The position numbers and the translations under genes are program-made. From Isoetes taiwanensis (Eukaryota > Streptophyta > Lycopodiopsida > Isoetales > Isoetaceae): a DNA stretch of 64,000 nt. A model generated the notes under the pieces. That model worked only from the letters and a program-made list of their open reading frames with translations. It was not told where the DNA came from and ran no database searches. Positions within the stretch are counted from its first letter, which is position 1, and each line of letters starts with the position of its first letter. Where the stretch lies: NCBI GenBank assembly GCA_021234155.1, contig JAJEKV010000093.1, positions 2,215,712-2,279,711 of the forward strand, given 5' to 3'. Below, piece after piece: positions 1 through 59,903 of this stretch.

Positions 1-1620
1 TTCCATCAATCACAACAGGCATATATTGCAATGGACGTTCAAGAGCTTTTTTTCTGTGTTTGGCAAGCTTTCTTCTCTCTGGCCGCTTGTTGTTCACGAT
101 GTCCGCAAGGTTACGTTGCACAATATCTGTAGAAGAAATCAGGTCAAAGCATTTTCTTTAAAACAAGTGAGAGATTGGAGAACATGAGCTTACTTCTTTT
201 CGACCTCTGTCTTTGCGGTTTCTCTTTGACTTTTTAATTACGCACACCTTGAGCAAAACAGGACATTCTATGTCTCCGGGAATTTTCACTAAACCGAATT
301 CACTTTTCCACGGGCCCGGTGAAGTGTGAGTAAGAGATGTCTTTGAAAGGCCGAGTGCAAGTCTCTTTGTACTCATTAAAAACATCTTTTTGGTGATGTT
401 ATCGGTTAAATGATACATGTTGTTGTTAGGCGGTTTCTCACATGTTTCTCTAAAATATTTCTCCATCCATGACACAAAGCAAGGGCATGCATGGTTACAA
501 CTCTTCTTGGTCCACAATGATCATCAATTGCTGGATTTTTGTCCGATCTTTTTGTGTATTTTAGACATTCTGGTGGACCCTAAACGGTGGACAACCATAA
601 AGCATTTCTGGCAAACTTCTTGACGGTTAATGTAGTGCAAGAAGGTGTTGCGGTCTGGTCTTACATGATAGGCCAAGTAGGCATTCTGGTCAGCCAATGT
701 CATTGAACTGTAGTTGTCTCTAATTGCTCGTAATTTAGACATGTTAAATTTGTTGATGCAACCCAATGAGCAGCATTTACTTCTTAAAAGTCTTCTCATT
801 TTATGCTCGTCCATAAGGTTTCTTCTTCTTACAGAGGAGCATGCTCTCAAACCATAATCTGGCTAGAGAATGTGTAATCTCGTTGCACTTCGTTGGTGTC
901 TTCATCTTCTGAAGAGAGTTCTACTCTGGGGGTGACCTCCTCTGCCCTTAGTGGTGTGCTTGTAGAGGAGAACAAACCACGTGAAGCTGTACCCGGATAA
1001 GGTGGAGATGCAGTGTTGAATGAAGGAGATGGGCCACTATATGATGTGCCAGTGAAAGTTGTTGTAGCGTCTTCACAGGGAGTTCGTTCAAACATATCTC
1101 TTATAGCAGACTGAAATTCTGCAAACCCATGTGTCACCACGTTTGTGTGAAGAGGAGTAGATGCTGCAGGGTCGTCTTCATTTGTAGTAAAATCGTGATG
1201 GGAGAAGCGATGGAGAATCTCGCAGTCTTCAGAACGTGCTGTATTCCTGGCATGTGTAAGTGAAGATGGAGAAACAACAAACGGCGGAGGTAGTCTGTTC
1301 CAAAAAATTTGCTGAGGTCGAGCCATTGTAGTGTCGGGGGATGGTACGAATGGTGGTGGAAGATTGCTACGTGCAACAGGTGAGGCTTTGAAAGGAGGTG
1401 GCAGCCGGTTTCTTACTGGACTTGGAGAGGGTTGGAAAGGTGGTGGCAGTCTACTAGTTACTGGACTCGGAGTGTCTTCGAGAAGCAACAAAGACCTTGT
1501 CGAGGTAGGTGTTGAAGAAGCATCTCCGTCTTGTGTTCCATCTGAAGTAGAGGTACTTGGGCAAACAAATGGTGGTGGAAGTTTGTTCACGAAGCGGTTA
1601 ACCATGTCAAGCAACTGCAA
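1..1620 (-). CDS. DUF7869-type transposon-associated protein, partial (continues past the window start), probably broken
   Basis: Read on the minus strand from a Met at 1620. Residues 1 to about 160 are a Pro/Ser/Thr-rich tail with five LPPPF motifs, followed by an acidic stretch. A second open stretch (850-524) is Cys-rich, with KCCSLGC and then EVCQKCFM. A third (517-158) has WMEKYF, HLTDNITKK and VKIPGD. An apparent intron (about 193-133, GTAAGC to CTACAG) leads to DIVQRN... and ends at PVVIDGM at the window edge. This order (Cys-rich head, W-x-Y, HLxxxLTKK, KIP, then IIDGM) is what I recall of DUF7869 proteins, an RNase H-like family common in non-seed plant and invertebrate repeats; that is family memory, not a search. 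The joins at 850 and 520 change frame, so there are either unseen introns or frameshifts. It is divergent from the ParB/MTase gene at 1941. Confidence 0.55.
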
Positions 1621-1940
1621 AAAATTGTGGGCTTGTTACTAACTCACAAGTCGATTGGACTAATGATATTCGAGAATACAAATGCTATTCCAGAATAGTA
1701 TTTTGTGTGCAGCATTTGCTGTGTGTGTGCAAAGATGCTATTCCAGAATACACTTGTCCAGAGTGTTTGGACAAGACGTATTCCGCATCACATAGAAAAA
1801 CACAACTGATAGTGGCCTACCTTTAAAAAGAAAAATCGAGCGCCTCAGTTGCGTATTCCGCTTTCAGAGATTTAGTCGCCAGCCCGAGCGCCTTCCGATC
1901 AATATTCATTTGCTGTATTCCGATTTACATAGCGAAAACA
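1621..1940. promoter_or_regulatory. Shared intergenic region between two divergent genes, with degenerate palindromes
   Basis: About 320 bp separate the two divergent start codons. The region holds imperfect versions of the copy 1 palindrome: TATTCGAGAATA (1667-1678), TATTCCAGAATA (1686-1697 and 1739-1750), and half sites GTATTCCG near 1783, 1851 and 1915. A bidirectional promoter is inferred from position only. I see no clear TATA box. Confidence 0.45.
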
Positions 1941-2012
1941 ATGGACAGGTAAGCATGTAAAGTACATAGTACATCTTTCTTATGTTTCCTGATTTGCTTT
2001 TGTAGGCCAAAG

Positions 2013-2070
2013 TGTATTCCGGAATACACTTTGCCCATCTGGCGAAGAGCAAAGTGTATTCCGGAATACA
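2013..2070. repeat. Two perfect 16-bp palindromes in intron 1 of copy 1
   Basis: TGTATTCCGGAATACA at 2013-2028 and 2055-2070, centres exactly 42 bp apart. Both are embedded in longer symmetric flanks (CAAAG on the left, CTTTG on the right). They lie between donor GTAAGC (1949) and acceptor CAG (2333). A degenerate copy, TATTCTGGAATA, is near 2264. Confidence 0.95.
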
Positions 2071-2997
2071 CTTTGCTTGTGTTTTTGAGAACACTTGTTT
2101 TTTTGCACTTAAATAACACACTTTTTAGCTGAAACAGACCACTTTTTAGGTTAAAAATAACAGTTTCGAATCCAATTAAGGCACAAGAAATTGACTTAGA
2201 GTGACAATATTTTTGCTTGTTTTCCTGTCTTTTTCTGGCCTTTAGGGCACAAGATTAGTAAATGTTATTCTGGAATACAGTTTTCGTTTGAATTTCTGTC
2301 TTAACATGGTTGTTTTAAACGTTTTAGTGGCAGGGAAGAAGGAAGCAAGAGGGCATCAAAGAAATCTCAGAAGCCTAAGCGTCCACACCCTCAAAAGCAC
2401 ACCGCTGACACGGACGAGCCTGCTATTTACGAAAACTATCAAACGCAATGGTTCGTAACCAGGGGTGCAGATGGAAAATACAGCACACTGACGTTTCTGT
2501 ACGTCTGTAAAAGTGCTGGGAACAAAAGGTACGCCGACTCCGAGTTTGTTAACCTTGGGACAATAAAAGATGTCTCCGAGGTTGCCAGACAAGGAGGTCA
2601 GGTGGGGAGGCTATCCTTCAAGACCTCCCAAGGCTTCATTGTTGTGGACATCGCATTCTTTAGAATTGTCAGTGTGCAACCACAGGCACTGTACAAATTT
2701 TTTTCACACTACCGGATAAAACGAACCTTGTGTTCAGTAATTAGACAGGTTTGTTCCAGTACAAGCGAGGACTTTCCTGTCAGTGAGTCCGAGCAATCAG
2801 ATGGAGAAAGGTCACAATCACCACCATCTGCTAGTTCTTCAAGGAGGTCATCAGATGGAGGTTCCCAGGAACAAGACGAGGAAGAGCCCCCTGTGCCGCC
2901 AAAGAAACTTAGCAGGCCAAGGGCAACCATAGCTGCTAAGAACCAAAGAAGCGAAAAGTACAGCAACTTGAAATCACAGAAGTCCCCGAGGAAAGCT

Positions 2998-3042
2998 CAA
3001 AAAAACAAAAGGGAAAAGGAAAAGCTCCCGGGGTTGCAATAA
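2998..3042 (+). other. Candidate -1 ribosomal frameshift site (A_AAA_AAC) at the ORF overlap
   Basis: The N-terminal frame reads CAA AAA AAC at 2998-3006, which places the heptamer A AAA AAC in the canonical X_XXY_YYZ phase. A -1 slip there enters exactly the frame that runs into the ParB domain. Without a slip the N-terminal frame ends at TAA 3040-3042. The -1 frame is open from about 2940. I see no strong downstream hairpin beyond a CCCGGG core at about 3027. An ordinary indel in a decaying gene explains the same data. Confidence 0.35.
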
Positions 3043-4097
3043 AGGAAAAGAAGGTTGATAAGACCTCTGAAAGAATGGAGGTTATTAATAGAGAAAAATT
3101 TGTACAAGGGGTGATTTATCTTCCTGTGACTAGCATGAGGCTGCCCCCAAAGAATGAGTCTGGCGAAAGGCCGCTTCAAGTTCGAAAAATTTATGCCGAC
3201 CACTTAAGGAACTTGAAGGACAGAATTAGGAGCAATCCAAATGCTCATGTGGCCCCAATAGTTGTCCTTGTTGACAGGGAGCAATGCAAAACCCCCCAGG
3301 AATATGACAGAGAAAACGCAGAAACATACACTCACTACGTCTTGGGAGGAAATCATAGCTTCAAGGCAAGAAGGCAGCTGTACAAACAAAAGAATAACCC
3401 CAGGTACCTCTCTGTCTTGTGCGCAGTTTACTGTGGTCTCACCGACGAGGAAGCAAAAATCGTTGCCAACACCCATAATGCTGACAACGAGTACAAATTA
3501 AAGATGAGCTTCGTCGACAAGATCCAATTTATGTAATGTGGAGTATATGATTTTAAGGAAAAATATGGAGAAGATTTGAAGAAACCGCATACTCGTTAGA
3601 ATCGAAGGAAGCGTCGTTTGTGGAGTCTTTGCCTTAAGTACAATGAAGCTAATAAACGGCAGTCTCTCATACCGCGTGACAACTGGTTTCAACTAGCCTT
3701 CAGAGATGGCAGGGTAAGTTTCTTTTGTATTCTGGAATAACCATGCAGAAACTAACCTTGTTTGTTACCGTGCAGATATGGGACCTTCAAAATGAAATTT
3801 TTACCATGTTCGAGCGTGGTGAATTAAAAAGTAAAGGAAAGGTCTCGAGAAAAGAAGAAAGGTTTCGACGTCCGAAGAAGGAAATGGCGATCACGGTGCC
3901 CGAGAGAAATGCGGGGCTTTACATGGACATACTAGAAAGGCTACTGCAGAAGGTCGTTGATAAAGAGTTTACGCTCGAACAGATGTCCAAGGAACTGCAC
4001 AAGTAAGAACGACAGAACTTTCATTTAAATTTTCCTTCCGTAGTTGGTTCAGTCTGCAAGCTGAGATGTCTTTCGAAACACACTTTTGTTTTTCGGG

Positions 4098-4335
4098 AAG
4101 CCAAAGTGTATTCCGGAATACACTTTGGCTTAATTAGGGAAGTCAATGTGTATTCGAATACACTTTGGCTTACAAGCCAAGAAGCCAAAGTGTATTCCGG
4201 AATACACTTTTGCTTTGAACGTAAAGCAAAAATGTATTCCGGAATACACTTTTGCTTCGAACGTAAAGCAGAGGTGTATTCCGGAATACACTTTTGCTTT
4301 TGGCTTGTAAGACAAAGGGTATTCCGGAATACACT
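4098..4335. repeat. Array of six palindromes in intron 3 of copy 1, phased at 42 bp
   Basis: Cores are at 4107-4122, 4149-4162 (lacks the central CG pair), 4191-4206, 4233-4248, 4275-4290 and 4319-4332. Centres are spaced 41, 43, 42, 42 and 43 bp, about four DNA turns. The first is a perfect 34-bp palindrome (4098-4131) once its AAGCCAAAG/CTTTGGCTT flanks are counted. The linkers around GAACGTAAAGC are themselves dyads. The array fills most of the 4003-4406 intron. Confidence 0.95.
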
Positions 4336-5138
4336 TTGGCTTCTTCTTGGTGCTTTCGTTTTCCAGAAAACAATACTCACCTTGTTTAATTGTTCTTGAC
4401 TTCCAGCCAGAAAAATGTTATTACGTGCCAAACATGTTTAATGGAGCAATTGAACATGGACAGCTGGGACAGATGTAAAGAGCTCTATCCCATAGCAACT
4501 TCCGACGAGCGTATTATTCAATACGCTCCAAATTTTGAGGGCTGGGTACGTCTTTTTCCTGTTTTTAATGTTTTTCTTTTGTGATGCCTGCCTAACATCA
4601 TTTACTAACAGAGCAAGAAGAAGAACAAGGACCTACCAGAAGGTTTTATGCACCTGGTAAGGACAGCCAGAGAAGAGAGGACTCTAGCGGATAGGTGTAT
4701 TGTTGATGTTGAGCCCTCCGACTACGAGAGGTTTTCCATGTTTGATCAAAATAACTATTATTTTATCGTTCATGGGGACTGCACTAAGTTGGCTGGAAGT
4801 ATAAAGCCACAAGATTTTACTTTGGTCATAGCAGACTTGCCGTATGGGTTTTTGAAGGATAGCCCTTCGACGATCGGTCATTCAAAACTCGAATTTAATG
4901 CTTTTCGCCGATGGAATTAAGCAAGGTTACCACAAAGAAAAAACCGGGCGTCTTGTTGTGTTCCACCCCAAAGATGCAATCCGGACTTGTGGAAGCTACT
5001 TTCAAGAACCACCGGTTCTCTCTGTGCAAGCCGGTTATGAAAATATGGTCTGGTGAGTCTTCAAATCTCGAGTGCAGTTGAAACGTTCTTTCTTTCAAGT
5101 TTTGAGTCATTGTTGCAGTTGTAACTCTCGTCATGTTC

Positions 5139-5171
5139 TATTCTGGAATACGTACTTACTATTCTGGAATA
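5139..5171. repeat. Two degenerate palindromes in intron 5 of copy 1
   Basis: TATTCTGGAATA occurs at 5139-5150 and 5160-5171, centres 21 bp apart (half the 42-bp period). The central CCGG has become CTGG in both. They lie just before the acceptor CAG at 5182. Confidence 0.85.
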
Positions 5172-5851
5172 CGATCTTGCAGGTACAAAACTAATATTTA
5201 CTACCATGGTGGAGGACCGAGGCTACTGAGCAAGGTTGAGTATCTCCATGTAGCTTACTGGAGTTTCGACGGGAAGCGTACCATGGAGCACTTTAACACA
5301 GCATCCTGCCAAAATTTTTCTAATGTCCTAGAGTTCCCCCAGATATTACGAAGCTCCGGGACCCAAGTGCACAAGGCAAAATTGTGAATCATTACCAGAA
5401 GCCACAGAAGCTAATTAATCATATTCTGGATATGTTTTCACGTCCAGGAGATTGGGTCCTAGATGCTTTCTCTGGCTCTGGTACAACAATAGCATGTGCA
5501 CTTAAAAAGGGACGTAATTGTGTTGCTGTTGACATTGATAAAGAGGCTGTAGACTTTATTAAGATGCGGTTTATACGCTCTACCAACTCTACGGATGAAA
5601 ATCAAGAGTTGGGAGCCAAATCATCATCTGATTTTGCCAAGATGACATCTTCTGAGATACAACCTCCTTTCACAAGCTCTCTGGAAGATGAAGCTACCTT
5701 TGCAGAGCTCAAAGAAGTAGCTCTAGTTACTATTCCTGAAGAGACTGTTGACACCAACAAAGATAAAATAGTGACAAAGGAGCAAACTGTGGAGATAGAA
5801 AAAGGTGAGACGAGCAAACCACACACTGAGGACTTCGATTTAGACCTCTGA

Positions 5852-6190
5852 GTTAGTTTTTGCTATATTATTTACTACTGGCTATAAAATAATGCCATAT
5901 TTGATGTACTGAAAGAAATTAATAAAAAAAAAAAAAAATTTTATTTTTACGTTATTTTGATGTCCTCGAATTCATAGTAATATTCCTGGTGTATTAATGT
6001 CTGGAATTTTGCCATTTTCAAGTGCTCTATTCTACAAATGCAAGATCATCACTTCAAAAGAGCCCAAAATGCACGATAAAATATTTTGTTTCTCTTCAAA
6101 TCCCCAACTTCTTTTGAAAATGATCATTTTTTAAATCCTGGTGTTTTTTTTAAGGGAATCTTTGAAACGGGAGTGCTGCAACACTCCCGT
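5852..6190. other. 3' flank of copy 1 with poly(A) signal and hairpin
   Basis: AATAAA followed by an A-run lies at about 5921-5938, a plausible polyadenylation site for copy 1. A hairpin with 11-bp arms (AAACGGGAGTG / CACTCCCGTTT, 6165-6192) has a 6-nt loop and sits at the truncated 3' end of the gypsy fragment. No gene seen. Confidence 0.5.
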
Positions 6191-8770
6191 TTAATTTGCA
6201 ATCGTGTTAACCTTGGTTGTATCAAAATGGCAGTTAGAAAGCTTGCCAAACAAGCGGTGCCGTCGTAGCTTTTCCAAGATTTTCCTTGGGTGTGCTACGT
6301 GTTCTTCCAATGACTTGCTATATATGAGGATGTCGTCGAAGAAGATGATGACGAATTCATCCAAATACTTCCTGAAGATGTCGTTCATTAGCCTCATGAA
6401 TGTTGCGAGGGCATTTGATAAGCTGAAAAGCATGTCTATAAATCAATAATGTCCATACCGCATTTTAAAGGCAGTCTTATGAATTTCTTCTTCCTTGATT
6501 CTTATCTGATGATACCTGGATCTCAAGTCTATCTTGGAAATGACTTTCGCCCCTTGGAGTTGATTCATCAAGCTGTCTGCTCTAGGTAAAGCGTTGTTCT
6601 TTACCATCTGCTTGTTGTAGTCTATACACATCCTTAGACTTCCATCTTTTTTCTTTACAAAGAAAATGAGTGTCCCAAAGGGTGAACGCTTGCTCTGATG
6701 AATCCAAGTTCAAGCAATTCTTGTTTCTTGAGCTCCGCTAGCTCTGGGATGTTCATCTTGTAGGGGGCCTTGCTGTTAGGCTTAGCATCTGGTGCTAGTG
6801 TGATTTCACATTCCACGCCTCTGTAAGGCGGCAATTCACGGATCTCATCCGGAAAGACATCATGGAATTCCCTGATTAGCCTTGCAACTGACCTGGGCAA
6901 CTCTTTCAAACTTGGCTCACCTTGCTTTTCTTGACCCAGCTCAATTGCCTCTAGTCTAAGGATATACTCCACTTTGTCCTTCATTAAGCTTTTATGCAAT
7001 TGCTTCAAAGAGATACACTGCATGACTGAAAGGACTTTCTTACCTTTAACTACAAAGCGGTTTTCTTCGGATGCTGTGATCGAGATTTCGTGCCTGTCGC
7101 AGTCAATCATATCTTTAGCTGGCTTCAAGAACTCCATTTCCACTATGAAGTCGTATTTATCAATGCCCATTACCTATGCTCCCATGATCAATTTAGTTCC
7201 ACTGAGGTCTATATCAAAGTTGACTATCTTACCCTTCGTGTGGTGAATTGCACCACTTGCCATACTGACCGGTCTGGGTTTGGACTTAAGGGTCTTGGAC
7301 TTCAATAAAGTGGCCAGTTTGGGAGAGGCAAAGTTGTGAGCTACCTGTATCTATGAGGACTACGTTGGGCTTATTATCAATGATGCCCTCAGCTGAAATG
7401 ATGGTGGACTGATTTTTGGCATCACCTTACTCAATAGATGCACAGATTCTACACTCACCTTTTGTCCTGTGGTTCTTGTTGGTCGTCTTCATCGTCGTCC
7501 ACTTTTGTTGGTGACTCCCAATCAATGAGTTTTGTCAGTGCTGCTTGCATCACGAAGGGGAATTATGTGTGCGATGACCCGGCTGGAAGCATCTGAAACA
7601 TAGCTTCTTCTTTATGCATTCCTCCCTCTTTTCCTTGGGGATACTATCCAAAAAGAATTTCACTGACTTTCCCCTTGGACCCTCCCGGTGCTTCTGCTCC
7701 CCATATGAGCCTTTCCTATCCATCTTTCCCTGAGATTGCTGCCCTGCTAGTGTGGAGGATAGCTGCCTGGGTTGATAAGAGCCTGTTGCTTTCCCCTTGT
7801 AGAATGATTGTTTCTGCCCGGGGGTTGTCGGTGCTTCCTCCAAGCTTAGTGCCTTGTCTTCGGCCTCCCCAATTGTTTTCAACCTCTTAATGTTATTGTT
7901 CAGTCCCTCAATACAGCCATCCACAACCTGCCTCTCTGTGATCCTTGGAACATTTAGCCTTGGTCTCATGAATTCCTCTATATATTTTTCCAATGATAGG
8001 TTCCCTTAATCCAATCTGTAGAACTGCTGAATCTGCCTGCTTGTGTGCGACCTTGGGACGTAGCGCTTGTGGAAAGCCTTACTGAAGACTTTGAATCTGC
8101 AATTGTTCCTTCTCAGCTTGTTTGACTTGGCATATCCTTTCCACCAAATGCGAGCTGGCCCAAACAGGTTTGTTGTTGTCACTTTTCCTATGTCCTTGTC
8201 TTTCATGCCATATGAGTTACCAAATTCTTCCATTTCGTCCAACCAGGCTTCAGCTTCCATTCTTGACCTATCCTTCCGGAGAACTGCCCCAATTTTCGAG
8301 TTTTCCACACGTTACTCATGGCACCATCGACCTTTTTCTGGTAGTCCCCTGTTCTATGGTTCCTGTCCCTACCTTGTGAGGTGTCTGACTCACTTTCGGA
8401 AATGCTTCGAGATCCGTTTTCTGTATTGTCTGACTGGCTGGAGCTAGAAGGAGTTGGGCTCCTACTTTTTTTCCTCTTTCTGTTCTTCTCAAGCACATGG
8501 ACTTCTTCCTACTCTGGTTGAGGAGCTTCAGTGGTGGAGGCGGCATTGGTCCATATTCCTGTGCATACATCAAAGGCGTGGCCCACTCACTGTATTAGTT
8601 GCTACATCTGGTTACACATTCGGACTAGCTTTCCGTTGATAGTTTCAGTCGTCGTATCTTGTTCCTCGTCATGTTCTCTGCCGAAAAAGTCCCTAGGTTG
8701 CCACTGGTGCTGTCTGGCCTGACCTTGGGATTCTGAGCCGGTATTCCTGGCTGCAAGTATTTGTCACCAT
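6191..8770 (-). mobile_element. Ty3/gypsy retrotransposon fragment (gag to mid-RT), decayed
   Basis: Minus-strand pieces in order: an Arg/Ser-rich gag head (about 8570-8310), a retrotransposon gag domain (8308-7990, with GPARIWWKG and FHKRYVP), a knuckle CFRCFQPGH with its last Cys lost (about 7560-7600), a protease/linker region (about 7450-7200), an RT start with FPDEIRELPPYRGVECEI (7170-6655), palm [13 protein letters not shown] (about 6530) and the active site FFDDIL (about 6345). The second half of RT, RNase H, integrase and both LTRs are missing. The pieces lie in different frames with stops. It is probably chromovirus-like, judged from the RT lead-in. Confidence 0.8.
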
Positions 8771-9752
8771 GTTTGTTATTCAAAATTATTCATCATGATG
8801 TCATTTATATGCTAATTCTTATTAGCCCTAAAAAAAATCAAATTGGAACTCGACTTGTAAGTTAACAATAAATTATATTAATTGATAACATCGTCATACA
8901 ATTTGAAGCTTGAATATTATATAATCTTAGTACACTTTTAATGCATAGGAAGGGAGAAAAAGGTTTAGCGTTTGGAGCCCTTCATGGACTTGAAGAAGTC
9001 CTTCGCGTCAATCGAAGACCCTTGCGACATTGCGGAAAATATTTTTGACTCCACCTCACATCACTCCTCACCATTCACCAACAAATGTTGACGCATAAAC
9101 CCTAAACCCTCTTATTTGTTTTTGGTAATTTTCCTATATTTATTTGTTTTCTATTTATCCAAAGCTTGCTTAGATTATTGCAGAGACAACTTAGATAGCG
9201 GGTAACCATTCCTGCATATAATTCTTGCATCTTGAGTCAACTGTTCTCCCATGCAAAAACGGTGACCCGATGACTACATTGATAATCAGTCCACCATTCT
9301 GACCTGTCCATCCCGCCCACACCAAGATACAATGGTCCATTGAGCGGGTCAATCAACAAGCTAAATTTGCACCCTGATTTTCTTTTTCATTAAATATATA
9401 CTCCGCAGGCAAACTACAAAACGGGTTTGCAAATCTAGATCAGTCTTGAGGAACCAGAATTATAACTCGTGTGGCATTTCTTTACAAATGACCATTTAAA
9501 TAATTGGTCTAACCCAACACATGTTGGACATTTGCAGTGCCTCACAAGTCAGTAAAATCATTTAAAGTCATTGTAGATAGAAGCCCTCCAATTTTTGCTG
9601 CTACTCCAAACTAGAGATACAACCCTTTTGCTGTCTCATATGATAAGAGCAGTTTGTCCCCTGGGTAAGGGAAATCCGTTGACTTGCTGATTCACCATCA
9701 TGTTGCATCAATCAAATGAAGAATAACCACACTGTGATATATGTGAAGCCTT
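8771..9752. other. Gene-free stretch downstream of RH10
   Basis: AT-rich DNA with no coding signal that I can support. It presumably holds the RH10 3'UTR close to 9752. No repeats stand out. Confidence 0.5.
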
Positions 9753-12700
9753 CTAAAACCTTTTAGACTTCTTGGCCTGTTTCTTGCTGGTCAATCCAAG
9801 TGCTACATCATCATCGTCTTCAATCCGATGCCTTCTCCCTTTCTTCGAGCCCTCTTTGTCTCGCAAATGCTGCAAACGAGAATCAACCATTAAGAGTTAA
9901 AGGCACAACTCGTCAAAAAAAAATCAGTTCCACATAATGCCCATGTAATGGCCCCAAGCAAGAAAATTCTAGCACCCACCATCGTCACCATCCTTTGTGC
10001 TTCACTAACACGTTCAGCAAGAAGCTGCACCTCGTCTTCTTCAACTACATATGTTGGCAGTTGTTTTCCTGCAAATTTCTAAACATAAGCAAGAGAACCA
10101 TAGAAATAAATTATACAAGACAACAGAGGCAAACCTATTAGCTGCTCAATTCTTTGGAACAACTCAACATCATACTGTGTCACAATTGAAATTGCACGTC
10201 CTGATCTTCCAGCACGAGCAGTTCTGCCCACCCTATGTATGTAATCCTGACATTATAAGATAAGAGAATACAAAACTGTTTATAGATTGTATGAAAGTAA
10301 ACGAGAATACTGACATTTATGAAAGAGTTTAACATACCCACTTTCCTATTTCATGGCAACAACATTATCCACATGAATTTAATGGCTTAAGAAAAAACAT
10401 AGAGAATGTAATTATTTAAGAAACCTTAGAATTTGTAGGTATGTCATAATTAATGACAACGTCAACAGAAGCAATATCCAGTCCTCTACTCGCAACATCT
10501 GTGCATATCAGGATACTTCTCTCCCCAGCCTTAAACTTGTTTAATGCTCCAAGTCTTTTAGGCTGCACCAGAGAAAAATGGATCAAATAACTCTAAAAGT
10601 AAGGAACGTAAACATTGAAATAATAATGCACCTGGCTCATCTGACCACTTATGGGGATAGCCCCTAAGCCCAAATTGCGTAACAGCAATGCTATCCTTCG
10701 TGTCGCATCACATGTTCTTGTAAACACCATTGATGTACTTCCAGACATTTCGTTTAATAAGAAGACGAGATAGCAGTCCTACATAAGTAATAGTAAAATT
10801 CAAATTAATACAATATGACTTAAATATTAAAAAGCAGCTGGCGTATGCCCAAATGCTAGAGTAGGGGAAATCAAGCCCATAAAACCCACAAGCAGACTTG
10901 TTTCTTCAAGTCTATAAGTCAGGACAAAAAATGTGGTGAAAATGAGTAAGCACTAAAGGTGTGCCTTTTGACATATGGCATAATGTTGCTTAGATCCGTC
11001 AATCTATCATGCTTTGACTTGACTAATTATCCAGCATGCATAAATAATTCTTTAAAATTTCTTTGTTGTGCAAAGATGCCAATTCTTCTACATTCAGCTG
11101 CACAGACATGTTATGCATTCACTAAATAACATCATTTACATGTGCCAAGGCTTGTTCACCTTAAGCTTTGCTGGTATAAACAGGTATTCTTGCTTCAGAG
11201 TATCCACTGTGGTATATTTTGAATCTACTTCAACCTGCAACATTATTTACTAAAATCTTAGACAGTACATGTCCAGGCATCGCTCTCTTTCTACAGAAAC
11301 AGGGATGAGAAAGTGCATTGATAAGAGAAATAACTGACCCTTGAAGGATGTTTTAAGCAGGCTCGTTGAAGCTTTGCAACCTACATTAGAACCAAACCAT
11401 GCACTGTAAAGAGGAGAAGACTTCATCGGATATGGACAACTTGTATGCAAAATCTACCTTATTTGTCATTGTAGCAGAGAACAGGTATGTCTTTCTTTCT
11501 TTTGGTATGACCTTAAGTATCTCATCAATCTCCTTCTCAAAATCCAAGTTCAGAAGCCGATCAGCTTCATCCAAAACCTTGCATTCAAAATTGTAGATAG
11601 AACTCTCAAAAAATTGCCGGGAACATGAATAAACTAAAAGAGAGACTTGATTCGTACAAGATACTTCAAAGTCCTTAAACTGAAACCTTTCGTATTCGTT
11701 AAATGATCAACTAGCCTTCCAGGAGTGCCTACCTGCCAAGTAAACATGGTAAGTTTTTTAAGTATAATAACATATAGAAACAAAGAAATCATGGATGTAG
11801 ATGCAATCTATGTCTAACATATGTTATTTAATTACAAAAGTTTGTCAACTGCCTCAAATTCTAGTCCACATACCACAACATGTGGTCTTTTTGCAAGTGC
11901 AATTGCTTGTGCCATCATGTCTATACCACCAACCACCTGTAAAACCATAAGCAATTAAATCAAGAAGAAAACATAAAAAATATTACAAAGTTGCAAAAAG
12001 CAGGTAAGTTTGCTTACTGCAGCACATTTTAACCCAATCCCTGAACCTAATGCTTCAAATTGCTCTGCTATCTGGATAGCTAGCTCCCTGTATATCACGG
12101 TAATCCAAATCTTTGTTAAGCTACAAAAGAAGCTCAAAAATACATTAAGTTTGTGGACATAATGATACAAATTCATAAAATGCGCATCTGGAAGAGGCCT
12201 GAGTATAACTGCTTCCTCTCTGGTGTTAAATTGTAGAATTATCTTGGATGTGCCAAAGTGTCATTGGCCAAACTTTACCTCATAATCAATTAACATTGAC
12301 AGAACTCGAGAAAAGTTGGTGACCCTTGAAGAGGGGGAGTTCATTAAACATGACAATATGACGTCATCAATTCTTACCAGGTCTGCTAAATCACACTTTC
12401 ATCTTGTTCTGCAATGCATGCCAGTCCTTGCACTTGAACCACATGAATTCAAAAGAAGGGCCATTACAGCCGAAATACCTATACATCCTTTTATTTTTTT
12501 TATCCGAGTGTTATTGGAGAAATGAGGGCACTTGAACCACATGAATTCAAAAGAAGAGCCATTACAGCCCAAATACCTATACAGCCTTGTATTTTTTTAT
12601 CCGAGTGTTATTTGAAGCAATGAGGGCATTAGCGTGTTTCATGCGAATGAATATATGTGCAAAATTCTTTGTGGAGCATATCCAAGCTGCCATCTTGTAC

Positions 12701-13460
12701 AGTACCTTAACGCTCATGATATGTCACTTCCATCACTACAAGCTGCAGTTTATTGCAAGGTGACCAGATATTAACAGTTACTAGTTGCATTACTCCAATT
12801 TAAAAATCACAGCTCTGAGTAAAGACAAAAAGAAGATGGCATTCAGCCATGAGGGTTGATCAGTGCCCCTACCCTCTTTATATTTGGCAAGTGCCTATAC
12901 TGTTTTCCAAGTCTTATACCAACTTTGACTACTGTGGGGCTTAAACTGGAACAGACCTGTTGCATTTTCTTAAAATAGATTCCTGCATGAAATTCTAGTC
13001 CTTTTTTCCCACATTGGACCCATCAAACTTGAGAATTTGCCTTGTTATGTATTCCACAGTTCATAGGGGGTAGTAACATTAGTATCTTTGTTATTTCACG
13101 TTGTCTATGACAATAAGAGGAAGAAGCTTGCGGACCTGGTAGGGGATAGAATGCATGCAAAGAGGGGTTGTGGCTTTTCAAGCAACGCCTGTATTATAGG
13201 CAACGCAAAAGCTCCAGTCTTTCCAGATCCAGTCTGGGCAAGTGCAATAAGATCTTTACCTGATATTGAAGGAAAACAGTGTTAATGATCTACTTATTCC
13301 TCCAACCAATTGTAAAGTTCTAACCTTCTAAAGCCAGGGGAATGGCTTCAACTTGAATTGGAGTAGGCAATTTCCAACCCAGCTCATTACAGGCATCTGC
13401 TAGCTGATCACAGATGCCTAGTTCCCTAAAGGTAGGTAAGGCGGGGCGGTCCTCCGACAT
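9753..13460 (-). CDS. RH10: DEAD-box ATP-dependent RNA helicase, DDX47/Rrp3 type (plant RH10)
   Basis: Thirteen GT-AG exons on the minus strand: 13325-13460, 13136-13259, 12018-12087, 11874-11936, 11658-11732, 11458-11577, 11339-11380, 11160-11234, 10632-10778, 10425-10562, 10135-10246, 9980-10068 and 9753-9869. They total 1308 nt, giving 435 aa with no frame error. Motifs: Q motif GWKLPTPIQ (residues 28-36), motif I AQTGSGKT (53-60), PTREL, TPGRL, DEAD (159-162), SAT (190-192), TDVASRGLD, and [10 protein letters not shown] from 334. The C-terminus is Lys-rich ([11 protein letters not shown]), as expected for a nucleolar protein. The yeast and human relatives act in 18S rRNA processing in the small-subunit processome. 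This is the only clearly intact host gene in the window. Intron 2 (12088-13135) is long and contains a tandem duplication. Confidence 0.95.
12430..12627. repeat. Tandem duplication of about 98 bp inside RH10 intron 2
   Basis: Two copies starting GCACTTGAACCACATGAATT at 12430 and 12528 differ by a few substitutions and small indels in T-runs. The repeat is intronic, so it has no coding effect. Confidence 0.9.
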
Positions 13461-14250: not shown

Positions 14251-17229
14251 ATGAGTACCTACATCAAGGAAAAGAGTTCCGCTCCAAGGAGGAAGCTGCC
14301 GGACACCACAGGTCGATCTTTGCGATCTCCCACAATGCCAAGGAGGCCAAGCAAACGAGGGCAGTGGACTGAAGAACAAATGGCAGATATCTTGGATGAG
14401 GTGAGTGAGTATGGTATATCTGTTAGAGAGGCATCTAGAAGGTCGGGAATCCCAGAATCAACAATAAGGGATCGGGGGTCAGATGGTCAGATAACTCACA
14501 AACAGACCGGTAATCCACAAATCCCGGCGACTCTACAAGAGGAAGAGTTAGTCAATTGGGCACTCTCCGTATTCGAAAGGTGGAATGGGGTTACACTCTC
14601 ACCGTCAAGGAAAGGGCAAAGATGATGGCTATGGAGGGGGCAGCTCAGAAATTCCCCGGGTTCCCGGGAGTAAATGGTGGAAGCTGTTCAAACAGAGGCA
14701 TCCAGAGGTTACACTAAGAAGTGCAGAGACACTAGATGTGTCTCGGGCGCGTGCTATGACACAAGAGAATCTGGATAACTTCTATGCTAGTCTGAGACAA
14801 ATCTATGGCGAAGTTCAATTTCCGGCCTCTAGGATCCGGAATGCCGATGAGCCCGGCATCCAAGGCTAGTAAGGTGAAGGGCATGAAGATCATAGGAAGG
14901 AAAGGGGAGCATAGGGTCAATGAGGTGGTCATGAACAATAGGGAGTGGGTGACCATTCTGGTATGTGTAAATGCTGAAGGGTTTAGGATACCTAATTTGT
15001 ATATATTCAAGGGTACACGGATGAGGCAAGATAACATTGCCAGATGTGAGGAAGGGGCAATTCAAGTTGTGCAGCCCTCGGCTTGGATGACTACAGAATT
15101 GTTCAAGTCTTGGTTGTCACATTTTGTTGCTAGGGTTCCTGGTGGAGTATCTCCAACAAGGCCACATCTGATAATATTGGATGGCCATGGCAGCCATGTG
15201 GAGCTGGAAGTGATTTTGGCAGCTAAGGAAATGGGCATACATTTTGCCCTACTTCCAGCCCACACATTGCATAGGTTACAACCTTTGGATGTTGCATGCT
15301 TTGCACCATTCAAGGCAGCTTTCAAGAGATTGAGATCTTCTTACATGGTTAGCAAAGGGAGGACTGAACCGAAGAGGGAGGACATTGCAGAGCTCATTTC
15401 ACAGGCAGTTGAATCAGGGCTGACACCTAGCAACATCAAGGCAGGGTTTAGAGCTACTGGGATTTGGCCATTTAACTCGGACAAAGTTAAGCCAGGCCAG
15501 GAAAGTGGCAGGTTTGGAAGAGTGCCCATGGAGCAGATTATCAAAAGTGTGGGCCAGGAAAATGCAGCCAACTTGGAGGAGGAGGAATTGGAGCAATTCA
15601 ACATGGCTGACTTGCATGCCTTATGGGAGGCACCACGCCCTGCTGGTGAGCATGGTGGCCAAGAGCCTACTGGAGTGCATCAACATGTAGTTGACAATGT
15701 GGACATTGAAAGACATGATGTGCATCCATCTCACCAAGAAGATGCACCAGATGGGGAACATCAGGCCATTGAGCAGACCTTACAACCTTCACAGCAACAT
15801 GTGGTTCCACCTGCTGACATGGGAACAGCACATGCTTCCCTACAGAAGTGAGGACATCACAGGCCTGCATGCAACAATCTCAATCCTCGAGGGCAAGGAA
15901 TCGAGGTGTAGTCCCAGACCTAAGTGGGAGGGTGCATATCTCTAGTGATGGCTTCTGTGAGGCCTTGGCTGCTGAGAGGTCTAGGAGAGCTGAGGCAGCA
16001 AGACTAAATAATGAGCAAGTTGCAGCCAGGAAACTCGAAACTGCTAGAAGGAAATTGAAAAAAGAGGAGAGGGCCGGGAGAGTTCACAGTAATAGGGAAG
16101 AGAGGGAAAATAGGAAGAAGGCTGATGCAGAATTTGAAGCCTCTACTGCTAGACTTAGGGCACTAATGTACCCCAGAGGCATCTCAAGAGTTGCAGCAGT
16201 CTTCAACTTTCAGAGACCAATGAGTGATGAGGTGAGGAGCAAAAGGTTAGAGGTTAGAAACAGAATGAGGACAAGGCAAGGGTTGAGTCCAATCAGGGAT
16301 CCAATTTTGAGAACATCATTCAACATAGATCCTGGACTTCAGCAAGTTAGTGGATTGACCACACCAGTTACTAGTGATCATGCAGGTGACCAGGATAGTG
16401 AAGATGAAGTGAATGTTATGTGTAGCCTGGAGGATACTCACCTGTGCTCGGGAGATGTTGGTGGTGTGCAGGATGTTAGCATAGAAGGATTCCCGCCTGC
16501 AGTGGGACTGGCCCCAAACTCAATTAGTACAATCAGGTCACCATTGAAGACCTGGGACTTGGTCAACAGGGAGGGAGAGTCACAGCAAGATGCAGGTATT
16601 GGCCCTGGGAATTCCATGAGGTTGGATACACAAGGTTGGGTGAGTTATGCAACAGCACATTCTGGACCCCAGCATGACGGGGATAAGGCCATAGACAAAG
16701 CTAGGATCATTCGAGAAATGGTCGAAATAGGCGTGGAAAAGGACATAATCTCTCGGGCCAAAGGAATGGATGTGGAGTTTGCAAAAACCTGGAGGGCAAA
16801 TATGTCTGAAGGGTCAGTACCAACACCAAGATTCGAAGAGGGAAACACTTTCACTAACCAGGTGTTTTTTTTTTTTTGAGAGAGAATGAAGTTTTTTCCA
16901 TTAATTATAGAAGAAAAGTACAATGAAGTTCATTGTCAATGTGGGAACAAGACAATAGAACTGTAGGTAAAAGCAGTAATTACAATAAATATAAAATAGA
17001 TGCAGATTGATGATCCACAAAGAGTCTGCTGGAGCAACAGTGAGTGCAATAGTGATATGAAGGTATAACATGATAAAATCTGCCAAGATACCTGCAAGAC
17101 CTGCAATAGACCTGCTGATAGCTGAGATCCAGTGGATTTCAACTTTAGACAGGATACTTAGATAGTAAATTATGGAACCAAAAGGTAGTCAAAAGGAAAG
17201 TGGTAAAAGATAGGATTGGGAAGGCTAAG

Positions 17230-38432: not shown

Positions 38433-41196
38433 GGCTATTCAGCAGGATCAGGTTCCCCAGCGCCAGTGCCATGGCTAGAAGAAGCACCCATAGGATCTCC
38501 TTGAAAGGTCTCGAACCCTGTGGCAATGAAATTGGGATCATCAAGAATGTCCAGATTGAATTCTGTATTCTTGATCACATCATAGTCAACATCGGGCTCA
38601 TCTTCAGGTATCACTGGACTTGATGGATCTACAGCTTCTTCAACAACAGCACCTTGTCTCTCTTTCACAGGAACTGCTAAGATGATAGGATTCAGGAGGC
38701 GGTCAAGCCTACGAAGAATGCCCTATAGGCACTGCCGCTTAATCGGGTCACTTTCGAACACAATACAAAATCTCTTATGGATCAATGCAGCTCGGCCAAA
38801 CGAACCACAAGAGAAGTAATCAAACACTCATGTTCTTGGCAGTACCATTTTTTGCACGAGATAAGAGCATGTGGCAGGCCCCAGCTAGTTTCCCATGATT
38901 AAGTCCCCTGGCAAGCCTTGCTACCAGACTGAATCTGTTTGTTGAGCGACCACGGGCCATAGCCTCGCTCTCCCCCGGTCGCCTCTTCTTCATTACGGTC
39001 TGAAACGGGTGGCTCTCTTGAGGATGGTGGCAAAAAAAGCGAATCTGAGGTCAATGTCATCGACAGGAGCACCAGCAGCGGCCTGAATTTTTGTGGCGTA
39101 CACTAGTGCATGTGGCTTCTGAATTCCTGTGGCAGACGGATTCTTGTATTCGTCTTCATATATGCCAATAAAAACTCTGGATCTGGAATCCAGGTTATCC
39201 AACACAGATGAAATCAAAACATTATGCTCTGGCCTTGCAAAGCATACTATCCAGAAAGAATCAGCTGTGGTGTTCTTTACGGTATAGATAAAAAGTTAGA
39301 TAGTGTGGTTGTGTCCACATTGAACTTATGCATCTAGTGTCGGGACTATCAAGGATACCGGGTGGGAGTGCAAACAACTTGCCCCCCTGGCCATACCGTT
39401 AGTTCAACCGCGAAACGGAAGTCTTAGATTATCATCTAAGACAAAGATTACGTGCGTATAAATCTTGCCAAGGCAGGTGACACGTTACCGAAAACTCCTT
39501 CCTTGTTCACTTCTTGTTCAATCCACTTACTATGCAAGGTGGCCATGGAAATCAAGTCGGCATTGTCGAAGCCCGCCACGGTAGTACTGAAATCATTGAA
39601 GGATGTGAACTTCTTCGGAAAATTATCCTTCACATATTCCAAAATCTCCTTCTTCAAGAACGATATAGATCGTAGTGTCTTTGCCCTTGTCTTGAAGAAT
39701 TGCTTACCCGTATAATCACTGGTGACCTTCACGTAAGTCTTCCCATCTAGCACTTCCTGGAACAAAACATGACAGTCTTCATAGTCGAGACCCCTCATGC
39801 ACCTCAGGTAGGTCTGACTGAAGTAGTCACACTCTTTTGCTTGATTCACGGTAATAGTTTGTCCCTTGTTATCTTTTAGCTTGCAAGATTTCCACAAGTT
39901 CCATAGGGACATGAATAGCTGAAAAATATCTTCAGGCATGAAGACCCACTGGTTGAAATCTTTTGGTGCCTTGTGATGCATGGTAACTTCAGCCAAAGCC
40001 AAATAGCGCTGGAAGCAACAAGAAGTTAGTCTTGAATGCAAATGATTATCAAATGGCACCGTTTGGTGAAGAAATGGCGCCGGGCGTTTCATTTGGTGAG
40101 ATGAGGAAATGTTCCTCACCAAATGGCGCCACGGCGCCATTTCTTCACCAAATGGTGCCACGACGCCATTTTGTAAATAGCCAACAATTAAAACACTATG
40201 TACCTTGTAGGGTTCTGAGCGTGATTGCCCGCGTCCCGATGGATCAGGCTTCCCGCAAAGAGCATATTGGTGCCGCAGGTGGGTTATTTTATCAATGAAG
40301 GGCTCCTTGAAGATAGTCTTGGCAGCGATATCATTGACTTCACAACCAAGCTGCAGGTATTCTTGCTCGTTGACCGTGCCAGATAAGACTCGGCAATTCC
40401 GATACTCATAAATCTTGGACATTTGTTCTTGGGACTTTGTTGTGCCGAGTCTTCTACATACAAGCTGAGCAGCCATAACTGAGTGATTGCCATTCACTAT
40501 ATAATAGTGCGCCTTGTTGAGGTCATCCTCGGTTTTCCAAGGGACTAGTTTCTTTGTGATGGGATTGAATGGAATCACATCAGCAGAAGTGAACACTGAA
40601 TGTGGGTCTCTTTGAAAGGATTCCCCTAACGTTTTGACGTGCTCCATATTCCTTGGCCTAGATGTCAGATTCGGTGGCCCTTGTTATAGGCTGAACACGT
40701 TTATCCGTTTTATGAATGTGATGCCCAGAGGAAAAAGATGCCGGTGGTCAAAGATTTTCTGTAACGTTGTCTCTGCCATCTTTTCCTCTTCTGACCTTTC
40801 CATCTTAAGATTTGCAGGCACCTCGAGCAAGTGCTGAGCTATTCTTAATGTAAGCTTGCGCTCTTGGGCTTCTCAGTAGTGACCCTTTTGGCCGGTGTGC
40901 CTACAGAATCCTTTGTATGTGATGGGCTTGCAGGAATGTCACCACCACTTCTGGCCTCCTGCGCGTCGTTCCTCTCCATCCGGCTTGGACTTGCATCAGG
41001 ACTAGGAGTCTGAGTCTGTCTCCTTTGTTTTTTAGGTGTCCTCTCCTTCTCAGAGGTCTCTAACATGTGCTTCTTCTTCTTCTTCTTTTTCCCTTCGATG
41101 TCCTCTGTCTTCTCTTCCCTTCCCTCCTTTTCCTGTCCTGCCTTTCCTTCCTTCTGCTCTTTCCCATCCTTCCTGTCCTTGTCTTTTTTTCTTTTA
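38433..41196 (-). pseudogene. ParB/DNA methyltransferase copy 2, 3' part (linker, ParB, MTase)
   Basis: Minus strand. The Lys-rich linker (41193-40845) includes a run of seven lysines. The ParB-like domain is at about 40760-40204 (ITFIKRINVF, YIVNGNHSVMAAQL, FIDKITHLRHQYALCG), in the -1 frame relative to the linker. The intron 40203-40013 is palindrome-bearing. Helical exon 40008 to about 39450, then an MTase-like exon from about 39275 (FWIVCFARPEHN, IYEDEYKNPSATGIQKPHALVYA, then VFDYFSCGSFGRAA with CIVFESD). An acidic tail ends at TAG 38433. Against copy 1 the motif I FSGSGTT has become FSCGSFG. I could not find DLPYG. Stops TAA 40684 and TAG 38723 sit where Gln codons would fit. Further shifts near 40860, 38995 and 38850. 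It is homologous to copy 1 by domain order and short motifs, not close in sequence. Confidence 0.7.
40013..40203 (-). other. Intron of ParB/MTase copy 2 with GGCGCC palindromes
   Basis: Donor GTACATAG at 40203, acceptor CTTCCAG at 40009-40015. It contains AAATGGCGCC-AC-GGCGCCATTT (40121-40142) and the inverted pair ATTTGGTGAG / CTCACCAAAT (40091-40122), plus GGTGCC and GGCACC variants. A reading frame happens to stay open through it, but the exon borders and the repeats show it is an intron. Confidence 0.75.
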
Positions 41197-56368: not shown

Positions 56369-58147
56369 GCGAGCATTATATTTGCCAACTCCTGTTGTTA
56401 AGGAACACTTAAAGGAGGATTTGAGTGTAAAACTTGCAATGATTGCTGATAACAAATATTTCTAATTTTTCCATGCGGTAAAAATGGTGATACTGTTGGT
56501 GCATTAGGTATTACCTGGATAGAAAACGGGCAATGGAAATCTTTAACAGCATTGGACTCATTAACATGTTAAGGTAATTATATAAGCTGGACTAGTGAAA
56601 GAAGCCTGTTAACATGTTAAGGTAATTATATAAGCTGAGCTATAGAATTATCATACATATGAACCGGTCTTCTGCACAATATTTCGTTGAGCTAGTTCTG
56701 TAAGTTCTGGTCAGGTTGATCGATACCGGGCCCTGTGATATGCCAGTCCTGGCTCTATGTTTCCTTCTGTCTTCAATCCATAGTTCTAACCTCCGGTAGA
56801 ATACAAAAATTTGGGCAACCTAATCTGTCGTTTGCAGCGAAGAATTTGAATTAACACTCCAACCTGCAGAATGCTAACATGCAGCTTTAAACGAAGATGG
56901 GATTCGTACAATTTTGCATAAGGATGTATCATCAATTCGATGCAGACAGAAGTTTACATCTTTTGTTTTATGACAGGAACGGTCGATTTTGCTTAGTCTT
57001 GTCCAAAACTCTATAACCTTAGCAAGCTCGAATTACAGGCTATCATGACAGCAGTAGTTAGAACCCTAGGTAAACAAAAGCTTCTTCAAGATTTAAAAAT
57101 AAAGAGACTACTTATAAACAGTTTTTATTCTCTCTGTATTCTTCTTATAGGGATATGGATTGACCGAATATTAGCTGCGTGACTCTGTCACATTTGTGGT
57201 CCAGGACACATACTCCTTTGAAATATCCTATATGTCAAAGTATGTATGGAAACGTACTCATAGCTTAGCAAGCATGGCCAACATCAATATATTTCCGCTG
57301 TAGTCCGGTGAATTCTTTCTAATAGATTCTCTCATTGACAAATCAGAGCAGACAAAGAAACCTTGCCATAGAACAAATGCCAATTGTATGCAATTTGATC
57401 AAGCCCAGTAACTTCAACAGAGTCTCTTTTCCATTGTCAATCTGGAAACTCTCCAGGAAGAGGCCGACCATAGTATTCTGAGTTGTCCAATAGGTCAGTA
57501 AGGCCTTTGATAGAGAGGTTCTACCTTTGTTTTATAAATCTTTTAAGCAGAGTCTTTAAATATTTCTAAATATGGCTTTAAAAATGGATTTAAATATTTT
57601 CAAATATGGCTTTAAAGATGGCTGTAATTATCTGCCACATTGTAGACTTTTTTATCTGTAATATCCTTTCGAGCACACAAAGCTCATATAATGATCATTT
57701 TATGCTAGATTGTAGTTTTATGATTAAAGTGTTTGTCTTTTTTTTTTATGTGGTATACAGGACTAGATTCTATGGTTTTTATGGCTTAAGGGGAAAGGTC
57801 CTTGGAGTAGGTAGTTAAGTTGGAAATAAATAGATAACTTAACTGAAAAAATATTTGATTTAAGTTAATAACAATAAACTTAATTAGATTGGTGTGAATG
57901 TAATTTGGTTAAGTTAAAATTGTAACTTAACTAAAAGCATGTCTGAAGGGATTTTGGTTAACCACTATCTTAACAAGACAATGTCTGAACTACACGTAGT
58001 TAGGTTAGATTTTTTTCATTTAACTATGTTTGGTGTGAAGAAATTTAACTTCTAGTTAAGTTACGTATTTAATGGAAACATAACTATTTCTAGTGTAAAT
58101 GCAGTGGTTCTAGTTAAGTTTAACTAACGGCGGGTGCGAATAGACCC
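56369..58147. other. Right part of the Harbinger-like element
   Basis: No gene seen. A short direct duplication (AACATGTTAAGGTAATTATA, at 56563 and 56612) lies near the MITE. From about 57830 the DNA becomes the TTAACT-rich subterminal region. Confidence 0.5.
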
Positions 58148-58865
58148 TTATCTTTCTTTTCTTTCTTTTCCTTCTCAGGATCTTTGTGATCCTTTCTCTT
58201 ACCTTTACCCTTGCCCGCCGATTTTCCTTCCTCCGTTTCCTGGCCAACATCTTCAGTAGCAGAGGAGGAGTCTTTTTCGGCTGCAGTAGCCTCCTTAGTT
58301 TGTCTTGTCTTCTTCCTGGTAACTGTCCGAAGCCAGGCCGTGTCCACATTGCCGGGTAGTTTCTGAGAGGCTAATGCCTTGACAACAAATGAAGGCGAGT
58401 TTTTCGACTCGTTCATACGATTGCGAAGAATATGATAGCCCCTCAAGATTTCTTGTGGACCTTGGATATCAGCTTCTTCAAAGTTGTTGTAAGATGGCAG
58501 CGCCCAGCCTTGCTTCTTCGCCGAACCAGATACATTTGCAATACTAGCAGACATCATAGTGGGATCATAAAACTTCCAGTCCACATAGTAGATAATTATT
58601 CTCTGCTCAATAGTGTCCTCAAGGACCACCCGGAGCCAATCATCGTGACCGCTCTTGGTAATCTTCTTCATGTTCACCACGATACCCGGCTGGTATATTC
58701 CTTCTGACTCTCCGGACATCTCCCTTATAAGCAAGCAGAGCTCTCTTCTGCAGTCTCCTTTCGAGCCTGTAGGAGCAGACATGCTCACCCGCATTACTTC
58801 CATGCACCAGCTCCTGTCTGTCAGCATGATTGTCTGCTCGGATTGAAGTTCCACGCGTAACGCAG
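58148..58865 (-). pseudogene. ParB/DNA methyltransferase copy 2, exon 2, 5' part
   Basis: Minus strand, acceptor TTTCAG before 58865. The open frame gives about 235 residues: a folded N-terminal module (CMEVMRVSMSAPTG, GIVVNMKKITKSGHDDWLRV, IIIYYVDWKFYDP), then an acidic and Lys-rich linker (EKEKKEKKDK) that is cut by the Harbinger end at 58147. Joining to 41193 across one TTA copy keeps the frame and continues the Lys-rich linker. Copy 1 has a module of similar size and place, with little clear identity. I do not know its function. Confidence 0.75.
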
Positions 58866-58929
58866 CTGAAACAAAGAGGCATCATTAATGGCACCAAATG
58901 AACAAGCCGGCAAACCAAACGAGAAGTAG

Positions 58930-59903
58930 GCAAATGGCGCCATTTGCATCTAAGTCCAATGCATAAACACTCATGGAAGCATTCGCATATACATTAGCTC
59001 TATTGACAGGAATAGAGAACGCTACACAATAAGAAGCAATCTACCAAGCAAATGGTGCGATGATGGCACCATTTGCTTATGAATTGCTTATTATTGGGTT
59101 TTTGTTCACCATATGTTTTTGTTCAAACCAGACGAGAAGTCGGCAAATGGTGCCATGAGTCCAATGCATTAACACTCATGGAAGCATTCGCATATGCATT
59201 GACAGGAATAGAGAAAGCAACACAATAAGAAGCAATCTACCAAGCAAATGGCGCCATCGCGCCATTTGCTTATGAATTGCTTATTATTGGGTTTTTGTTC
59301 ACCATGGGTTTTTGTTCAAATCAGACGAGAAGTAGGCAATATGCCTAATCCCAATAAGCAATCTACCAAGCAAATGGCGCCATGGCGCCATTTGCCCAAG
59401 AGTTGCTCGATTTGTCCTAATTAGCAAATGGCTTGACCATAGTCGCACCAGTTCACAATCGAATAGCGCCATGGCGCGATTTGCTTGGTAGAATGCTTCA
59501 TAGATGGGTCTTAATACGCCCAATGTACATGCAAATGGCGTCGTGGTGCCATTTGCTTGGTGAGACGCGACTTACTGGGCTTCTAGTTATCCATGGGTGT
59601 CAATAAGCTTGTTAGGCTTAGTCTTATTGACACCTATGGATAACCTGGAGCCCAGTAGGATATGTTCATTGGGCTTATTGACACCCATCTATGAAGCATT
59701 CTAAACAAATGGCGCCATGGCGCCATGGCGCCATTTGCATATGAACTGGTTATGATGGCGACTATGGTTAAACCATTTGCCATTAGGACAAATCAAGCAA
59801 AACTTAGGCAAATGACGCCATTTGCCAATGGCGCCATTTGCCAACAACAAAACTCCCTAAAGTAAGCTAACAGGCATCCAAATGGCGCAGTGGCGCCATT
59901 TGG
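58930..59903. repeat. Cluster of GGCGCC palindromes in intron 1 of copy 2
   Basis: Perfect palindromes: GCAAATGGCGCCATTTGC at 58930-58947, a 26-bp one at 59370-59395 (two ATGGCGCCAT units fused) and a 32-bp one at 59706-59737 (three units). Imperfect ones: 59048-59076, 59243-59270, 59460-59484, 59531-59556, 59808-59825, 59827-59842 and 59878-59903. Many variants read GGTGCC or GGCACC. Unlike copy 1 there is no fixed spacing. Confidence 0.92.

Follow-up and report, generated by a model that had tools for sequence, protein, structure and literature searches.

VANDAL transposons are Mutator-type elements, and Mutator-like elements produce target duplications of about 9 bp. The parS sites of the ParB/parS system are palindromes of approximately 16 bp. 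Among transposons, VANDAL elements and their VANC proteins provide a worked-out case of sequence-specific anti-silencing, as presented in the available portions of two reports (PMC5735166, PMC10398659). According to the same portions, VANC21 attaches to repeats of a motif located in the introns and other non-coding DNA of the transposon that encodes it (PMC5735166), related VANDAL families carry different motifs, and the repeats turn over quickly (PMC5735166, PMC10398659). En/Spm TnpA and MuDR MURA are likewise element-encoded, and in the accessible part of one report their action accompanies lower DNA methylation of the element that encodes them, with MURA acting on the terminal inverted repeats (PMC10398659).

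Here we describe a gene of Isoetes taiwanensis that combines a ParB-like stretch with a DNA methylase domain and holds short palindromes in its introns and promoter. To the extent that the available text of the two reports permits comparison, it shares four characteristics with VANDAL21/VANC21 and VANDAL6/VANC6 of Arabidopsis: an accessory gene is carried by a DNA transposon, tandem repeats of a short motif occupy introns, intergenic and terminal non-coding parts, the repeats turn over rapidly, and related families have different motifs, which in the present case is seen from the single copy read of a second family (family B, GGTATAAATTTATACC) (PMC5735166, PMC10398659). Relative to those portions of the VANDAL reports, the Isoetes motif differs in being a perfect palindrome arranged in units of 42 bp or mostly 28-32 bp, and the accessory protein differs in that a DNA-methylase domain is combined with a ParB-like stretch. 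Moreover, the Isoetes element has a 4-bp target duplication (five of five elements) and a DUF7869 transposase, which sets it apart from the Mutator type. The resemblance to ParB/parS consists of palindromes of about 16 bp located in and beside the gene for a protein with a ParB-like stretch, whereas the weak ParB homology, the eukaryotic host and the thousands of sites genome-wide are points of difference. The protein proposed below would be analogous to TnpA and MURA, as the accessible text describes them, in being encoded by the element on which it acts, but its sites would be internal, in the introns and promoter of one gene, rather than terminal as for MURA (PMC10398659). The initial annotation regarded a gene carrying such sites in its own introns as a new arrangement; VANC21, with its motifs in introns of its own transposon, is a precedent on the available text (PMC5735166). 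Literature searches for ParB in connection with methylases, plants or transposons gave no such element that was recognizable from the listed titles and beginnings of abstracts, and a search for DUF7869 found no paper.

A palindrome-bearing gene within a DNA transposon

The gene, including its introns, spans positions 1941-5851 on the + strand of the window, by which we mean the entire 64-kb stretch of DNA that was analysed. It belongs, as an accessory gene, to a DNA transposon of 8,153 bp, a membership that had not been noticed in the initial annotation. The features are as follows (a dot indicates that no strand is assigned).

1..6208 (.): window part of the 8,153-bp DNA transposon, whose left end is near window position -1944, in locus L011
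1..1605 (-): transposase gene, 5' portion, with the remainder to the left in L011 (DUF7869 at L011:9572-9865)
1606..1940 (.): shared divergent promoter region with TATTCNNGAATA sites
1941..1948 (+): exon 1 (ATGGACAG), inferred by eye
1949..2327 (+): intron 1 (GT..AG) with three sites, by eye
2328..3713 (+): exon 2, an N-terminal domain without a Pfam match followed by the ParB-like stretch (3078-3533)
3714..3775 (+): intron 2, 62 bp, with one site (3733), by eye
3776..4002 (+): exon 3
4003..4406 (+): intron 3, which holds the six-unit array
4098..4343 (.): six-unit palindrome array
4407..4545 (+): exon 4
4612..5052 (+): exon 5, methylase part with DLPYG, frame broken
5053..5182 (+): intron 5 with sites at 5144 and 5165, by eye
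5183..5851 (+): exon 6, C-terminal methylase part (PF01555 on 5384-5848)
6165..6208 (.): right end, a near-palindromic hairpin plus the inverted terminal repeat

The inverted ends of the element, AACAAGATTGC...ATTAAACGGGAG / CTCCCGTTTAATTTGCAATCGTGTT, are located at window positions -1944 and 6208, and the 4-bp target duplication AACC is present on both sides. Four shorter elements of 3.2 to 4.3 kb (in L013, L016, L023 and L025) share these ends and have their own matching 4-bp duplications, and such duplications therefore occur in all five elements for which both ends were found. The four short elements hold 8 to 13 sites each, a degree of array retention that is possibly biased because these elements were found via the palindromes. 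Just inside the terminal repeat at the methylase-side end is a near-perfect hairpin, AAACGGGAGTGyTGCAACACTCCCGTTT, which is seen at window 6165-6208 and in L013, L016, L019 and L021-L027.

The gene to the left of the methylase gene, on the opposite strand, matches DUF7869 (PF25273) with an E value of 1.3e-20 in its core, which is located in L011, and its N-terminal exon (850-1605) is rich in LPPPF. From the place of this gene in the element, we infer that DUF7869 probably represents the transposase core. A distant DUF7869 relative, about 40% identical, resides at L025:8946-9056 near a short element of the same family as the window element (family A), pointing to the probable existence of further DUF7869 families.

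The methylase assignment of the accessory gene comes from the PF01555 (N6_N4_Mtase) match, with an E value of 6.9e-17 and 62.6 bits against a cut-off of 26.7. The 'ParB' label used previously is weak: DUF6551 is matched by the ParB-like stretch of five of six aligned members with an E value of about 0.002, which is under the cut-off for that family, and PHROGs report a ParB-like partition protein for the copy in L030 with an E value of 0.0014. No ParB-named family was among the Pfam matches of the ParB-like stretch, and the Pfam scans that detected N6_N4_Mtase gave no match for the N-terminal exon. Structures predicted for exon 2 and for the ParB-like stretch were of too low a quality to serve as search queries (mean pLDDT of 52 and 37, respectively). 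In the window copy the reading frame is interrupted within exon 2 and within the methylase part; copies with a long open exon 2 frame exist, including that of L030, where exon 2 is a single open frame of 478 amino acids. A viral source bearing the palindromes was considered and rejected, given that viral_contigs contained neither palindrome matches (0) nor a relative at the protein level. Among 20 listed of 807 records, phage matches of the joined query were to the methylase part at 22-26% identity.

Location, spacing and conservation of the palindromes

A search of the whole window places all 14 exact copies of TATTCNNGAATA within positions 1667-5171, and every one of these is in the promoter (3) or an intron (three in intron 1, one in intron 2, five in intron 3 and two in intron 5) of the ParB-like/methylase gene. 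The promoter sites are at 1672, 1691 and 1744, accompanied by half-like sites at 1784 and 1921, and single sites are present at 2271 in intron 1 and at 3733 in intron 2. The six intron 3 sites are perfect palindromes, as had been proposed, with centres at 4114, 4155, 4198, 4240, 4282 and 4325 and spacings of 41, 43, 42, 42 and 43 bp. The site at 4155 is a variant that is 2 bp shorter (GTGTATTCGAATACAC), the last site (4325) has its first T replaced by G, and TRF reports a 42-bp array at 4095-4342. The initial annotation was also correct in placing an intron 1 pair (centres 2020 and 2062) exactly 42 bp apart. For the intron 5 pair (5144 and 5165) the 21-bp spacing was borne out, but these sites, both TATTCTGGAATA, are not perfect palindromes. 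Allowing up to five mismatches adds two weak exonic matches in the window (3539 and 5736, five mismatches each), and at this threshold no site is found left of 1672 in the window element, and thus none in the transposase gene or at the left end.

Chance does not account for this clustering, given that 14 of 14 exact window sites fall within 1600-5400, that TRF recovers the array, and that the 1.658-Gb assembly (1,110 contigs) contains 3,720 copies of GTATTCCGGAATAC and none of its reversed control. The palindromes are a real, strongly supported, lineage-specific feature of a high-copy DNA transposon.

The concentration of sites at the shared promoter is a characteristic that would be expected if the transposase or a host factor used them to drive the two promoters of the element, a reading to which we assign the lowest probability of those weighed here. 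Also counted in favour of a host factor is the sequence TTCNNGAA, which we take to resemble a heat-shock element, with TTCCGGAA presumably fitting its inverted part. However, the family B palindrome lacks TTCNNGAA, and the left end and transposase gene of the window element are devoid of sites even at five mismatches. Heat-shock elements as such were rejected due to their misfit to the family B palindrome.

To assess other members of the family, 16 further copies were chosen on the basis of the ParB-like exon and blind to the palindromes, four to cover a range of identity and frame length and 12 spaced by eye down the match list. The underlying search gave 3,052 candidates at first look; scores were computed for 150 of them, and every E value was below 1e-81. 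The 54,083 bases of the 16 copies contain 179 sites with no more than three mismatches to TGTATTCCGGAATACA, as compared with 0.1 in shuffled sequence. Intron 3 has a site in all 16 copies, the region upstream of the detected exon 2 start in 14, and intron 2 (from the ParB-like stretch to exon 3) in 10, while not one of the 179 sites is centred in a recognized coding piece (exon 2, ParB-like, exon 3, methylase or transposase exons). Recognition of exon 2 was limited to its later part in three copies, namely L033 and L038, which are the copies without upstream sites, and L041, for which the placement of the upstream sites is uncertain for this reason. In L032, the mapping of exon 3 assigns four sites to intron 2 and a single site to intron 3. 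Therefore, the palindromes constitute a conserved feature of the introns and promoter of this family, and their absence from other copies, which the initial annotation had named as an outcome against its proposal, was not encountered.

Spacings of 40-43 bp predominate, making up 94 of the 117 neighbour spacings of 100 bp or less in the 16 copies, and the random spacing that had been envisaged as a contrary outcome was not observed. Among exact pairs genome-wide, there are 959 at 40-43 bp (four spacings) versus 168 at 44-73 bp (thirty spacings). Helical phasing, which had been proposed from the 42- and 21-bp distances, was nevertheless rejected as a general organizing rule. When the 40-43 class is removed from a set of 146 spacings (the window and L012-L033 without L029), the 39 that are left exhibit no 10.5-bp phase (R = 0.07), and family B proceeds in 28-bp steps. 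It looks instead as if a palindromic repeat unit underlies the spacing. Array periods differ among copies (41, 42 or 43), the spacers of any one array resemble each other and are often palindromic themselves, and the two arms of one site resemble each other (0.57) about as do arms of the same array (0.61), as compared with 0.49 for arms from other loci. The simplest account is that a 42-bp palindromic unit multiplies within introns, with neighbours kept to within a base or two, and such multiplication permits, without needing, selection for helical alignment.

Unit multiplication could also be the whole explanation, wherein a functionless palindromic unit is spread by slippage and hairpin-guided copying in tolerant introns. 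A neutral by-product of this kind would account for 42 bp being the length of a repeat unit, for the variation in unit number and period (41, 42, 43) among copies, and for the likeness of adjacent spacers. We nonetheless consider it very doubtful, given that intron 3 sites were kept in 16 of 16 copies chosen blind, that lone sites recur in the promoter and intron 2, that TATTC and GAATA are retained as the flanks drift, and that family B has a different palindrome in introns of the same gene.

Intron 3 turns over fast, with 59% identity and 28% gaps compared with 80% identity and no gaps for the ParB-like DNA (36 pairs of nine copies). The number of 42-bp units in the arrays changes quickly. 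Across 132 sites with no more than two mismatches in 18 loci, TATTC and GAATA are nearly invariant and mismatches concentrate on the central CpG, such that the site centres are CG (77), CA (26), TG (25) or other (4). A change of CG to CA or TG is the pattern that would result from the decay of methylated CpG. The conserved half-site reaches GGAATACACTTT across loci, and arms further out are more locus-specific.

A second family and the possible role of the sites

Family B is represented by one copy read, composed of L029 and the first part of L015, whose ParB-like exon and transposase piece are 50% and 45% identical, respectively, to those of the window family. Its palindrome, GGTATAAATTTATACC, is located in the promoter/intron 1 region (spacings mostly 30-32, some 21), in intron 2 (mostly 28) and in intron 5 (25-29), and is present 7,218 times in the genome, with a control count of 0. 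One exception is a site with two mismatches at 6339 that is probably inside exon 2. The palindromes of families A and B have the outer GTAT...ATAC in common and differ in the inner six bases; with four of eight half-site bases in agreement, the likeness is only suggestive. This switch of palindrome, seen in one family B copy, is the strongest single hint at a homologous, diverging reader protein. We dropped the idea that exon 2 is a specificity domain because it diverges faster than the ParB-like part, since the same is seen in decayed copies with the same motif.

The sites are part of the element, are found in one copy after another, keep out of exons, are mostly arranged as 42-bp palindromic units, and give way to a different palindrome in a related family. 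With these characteristics in mind, we judge the chances to be evenly balanced that the palindromes are cis recognition sites in the non-coding DNA of the transposon, bound by an element-encoded dimeric protein with a VANC-like role. The dimer, most likely the ParB-like/methylase product, would bind the dyads on copies of its own family, with the transposase or a host factor being possible binders instead. Through methylation of the element or a block to silencing by the host, binding would keep the element recognizable and expressible, in the manner of VANC and VANDAL. The introns and promoter, not being constrained by coding, would offer room for docking, and the occurrence of short sites standing alone in the promoter, in intron 2 (62 bp) and in intron 5 favours a short binding site. 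If true, this would add a further case to that of VANC and VANDAL, apparently independent of it, in which a methylase replaces VANC, the motifs are perfect palindromes and the switch of motif between families can be counted. Such a case would point to the repeated origin of element-specific docking arrays in introns.

A more specific version, which we regard as unlikely, is that adenine or N4-cytosine methylation serves the transposon as a label for its own copies. The ParB-like/methylase protein would dock on family-specific intron arrays, spread or methylate, and so protect or mark these copies, and protein and arrays would change together when families split. The element would also make it possible to test directly whether N6/N4 DNA methylation functions as a self-mark in a eukaryotic transposon.

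Nucleic acid folding offers a serious rival to protein recognition, even though we think it improbable that the palindromes act as RNA or DNA hairpins. Self-complementary introns might loop out long introns, feed or dodge small-RNA silencing, or extrude as cruciforms. In the 42-bp units the motif and often also the spacer is palindromic, the arms are symmetric within a locus, and the predicted RNA folds are very stable relative to shuffled sequence (z of -17.7 for intron 3 and -28.3 for a family B array). However, arrays of palindromes are expected to fold well, and therefore the folds say little. Moreover, the core bases are far better conserved than the arm bases, sites are also present in the region that separates the divergent genes, and isolated short cores occur in intron 2 (62 bp) and intron 5, all of which fits hairpins less well than protein-binding sites.

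Other palindromes and genes in the window and loci

At L020:632 and L020:4874 there are two left ends of the element, each following the same TATTCTGGAATA, as if insertion had occurred at the palindrome of another copy or one insertion had been duplicated. Clusters of the palindrome TCGACTCGCGAGTCGA were noted at L018:5596-6085 and L012:9352-9665, where by eye no methylase gene is linked to them. A repetitive stretch at L029:2296-2457 contains the palindrome ACCACATGTGGT three times, at distances of 45 and 116 bp. In the window, positions 58911-59900 hold an unrelated second palindrome array composed of GCAAATGGCGCCATTTGC and variants, which is situated immediately upstream of a reading frame (58123-58881, - strand) without a Pfam match. 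This may be a different element that likewise has a docking array. A similar sequence, CAAATGGCGCC, is present at 40054-40171.

Further genes were noted in the window. An intron-rich gene on the - strand (9700-13460) looks by eye like a DEAD-box helicase, a DDE_1 transposon gene (PF03184) occupies 14360-16880, and a LINE-type reverse transcriptase with zf-RVT is neighboured by a DUF4283 match that is below its cut-off.
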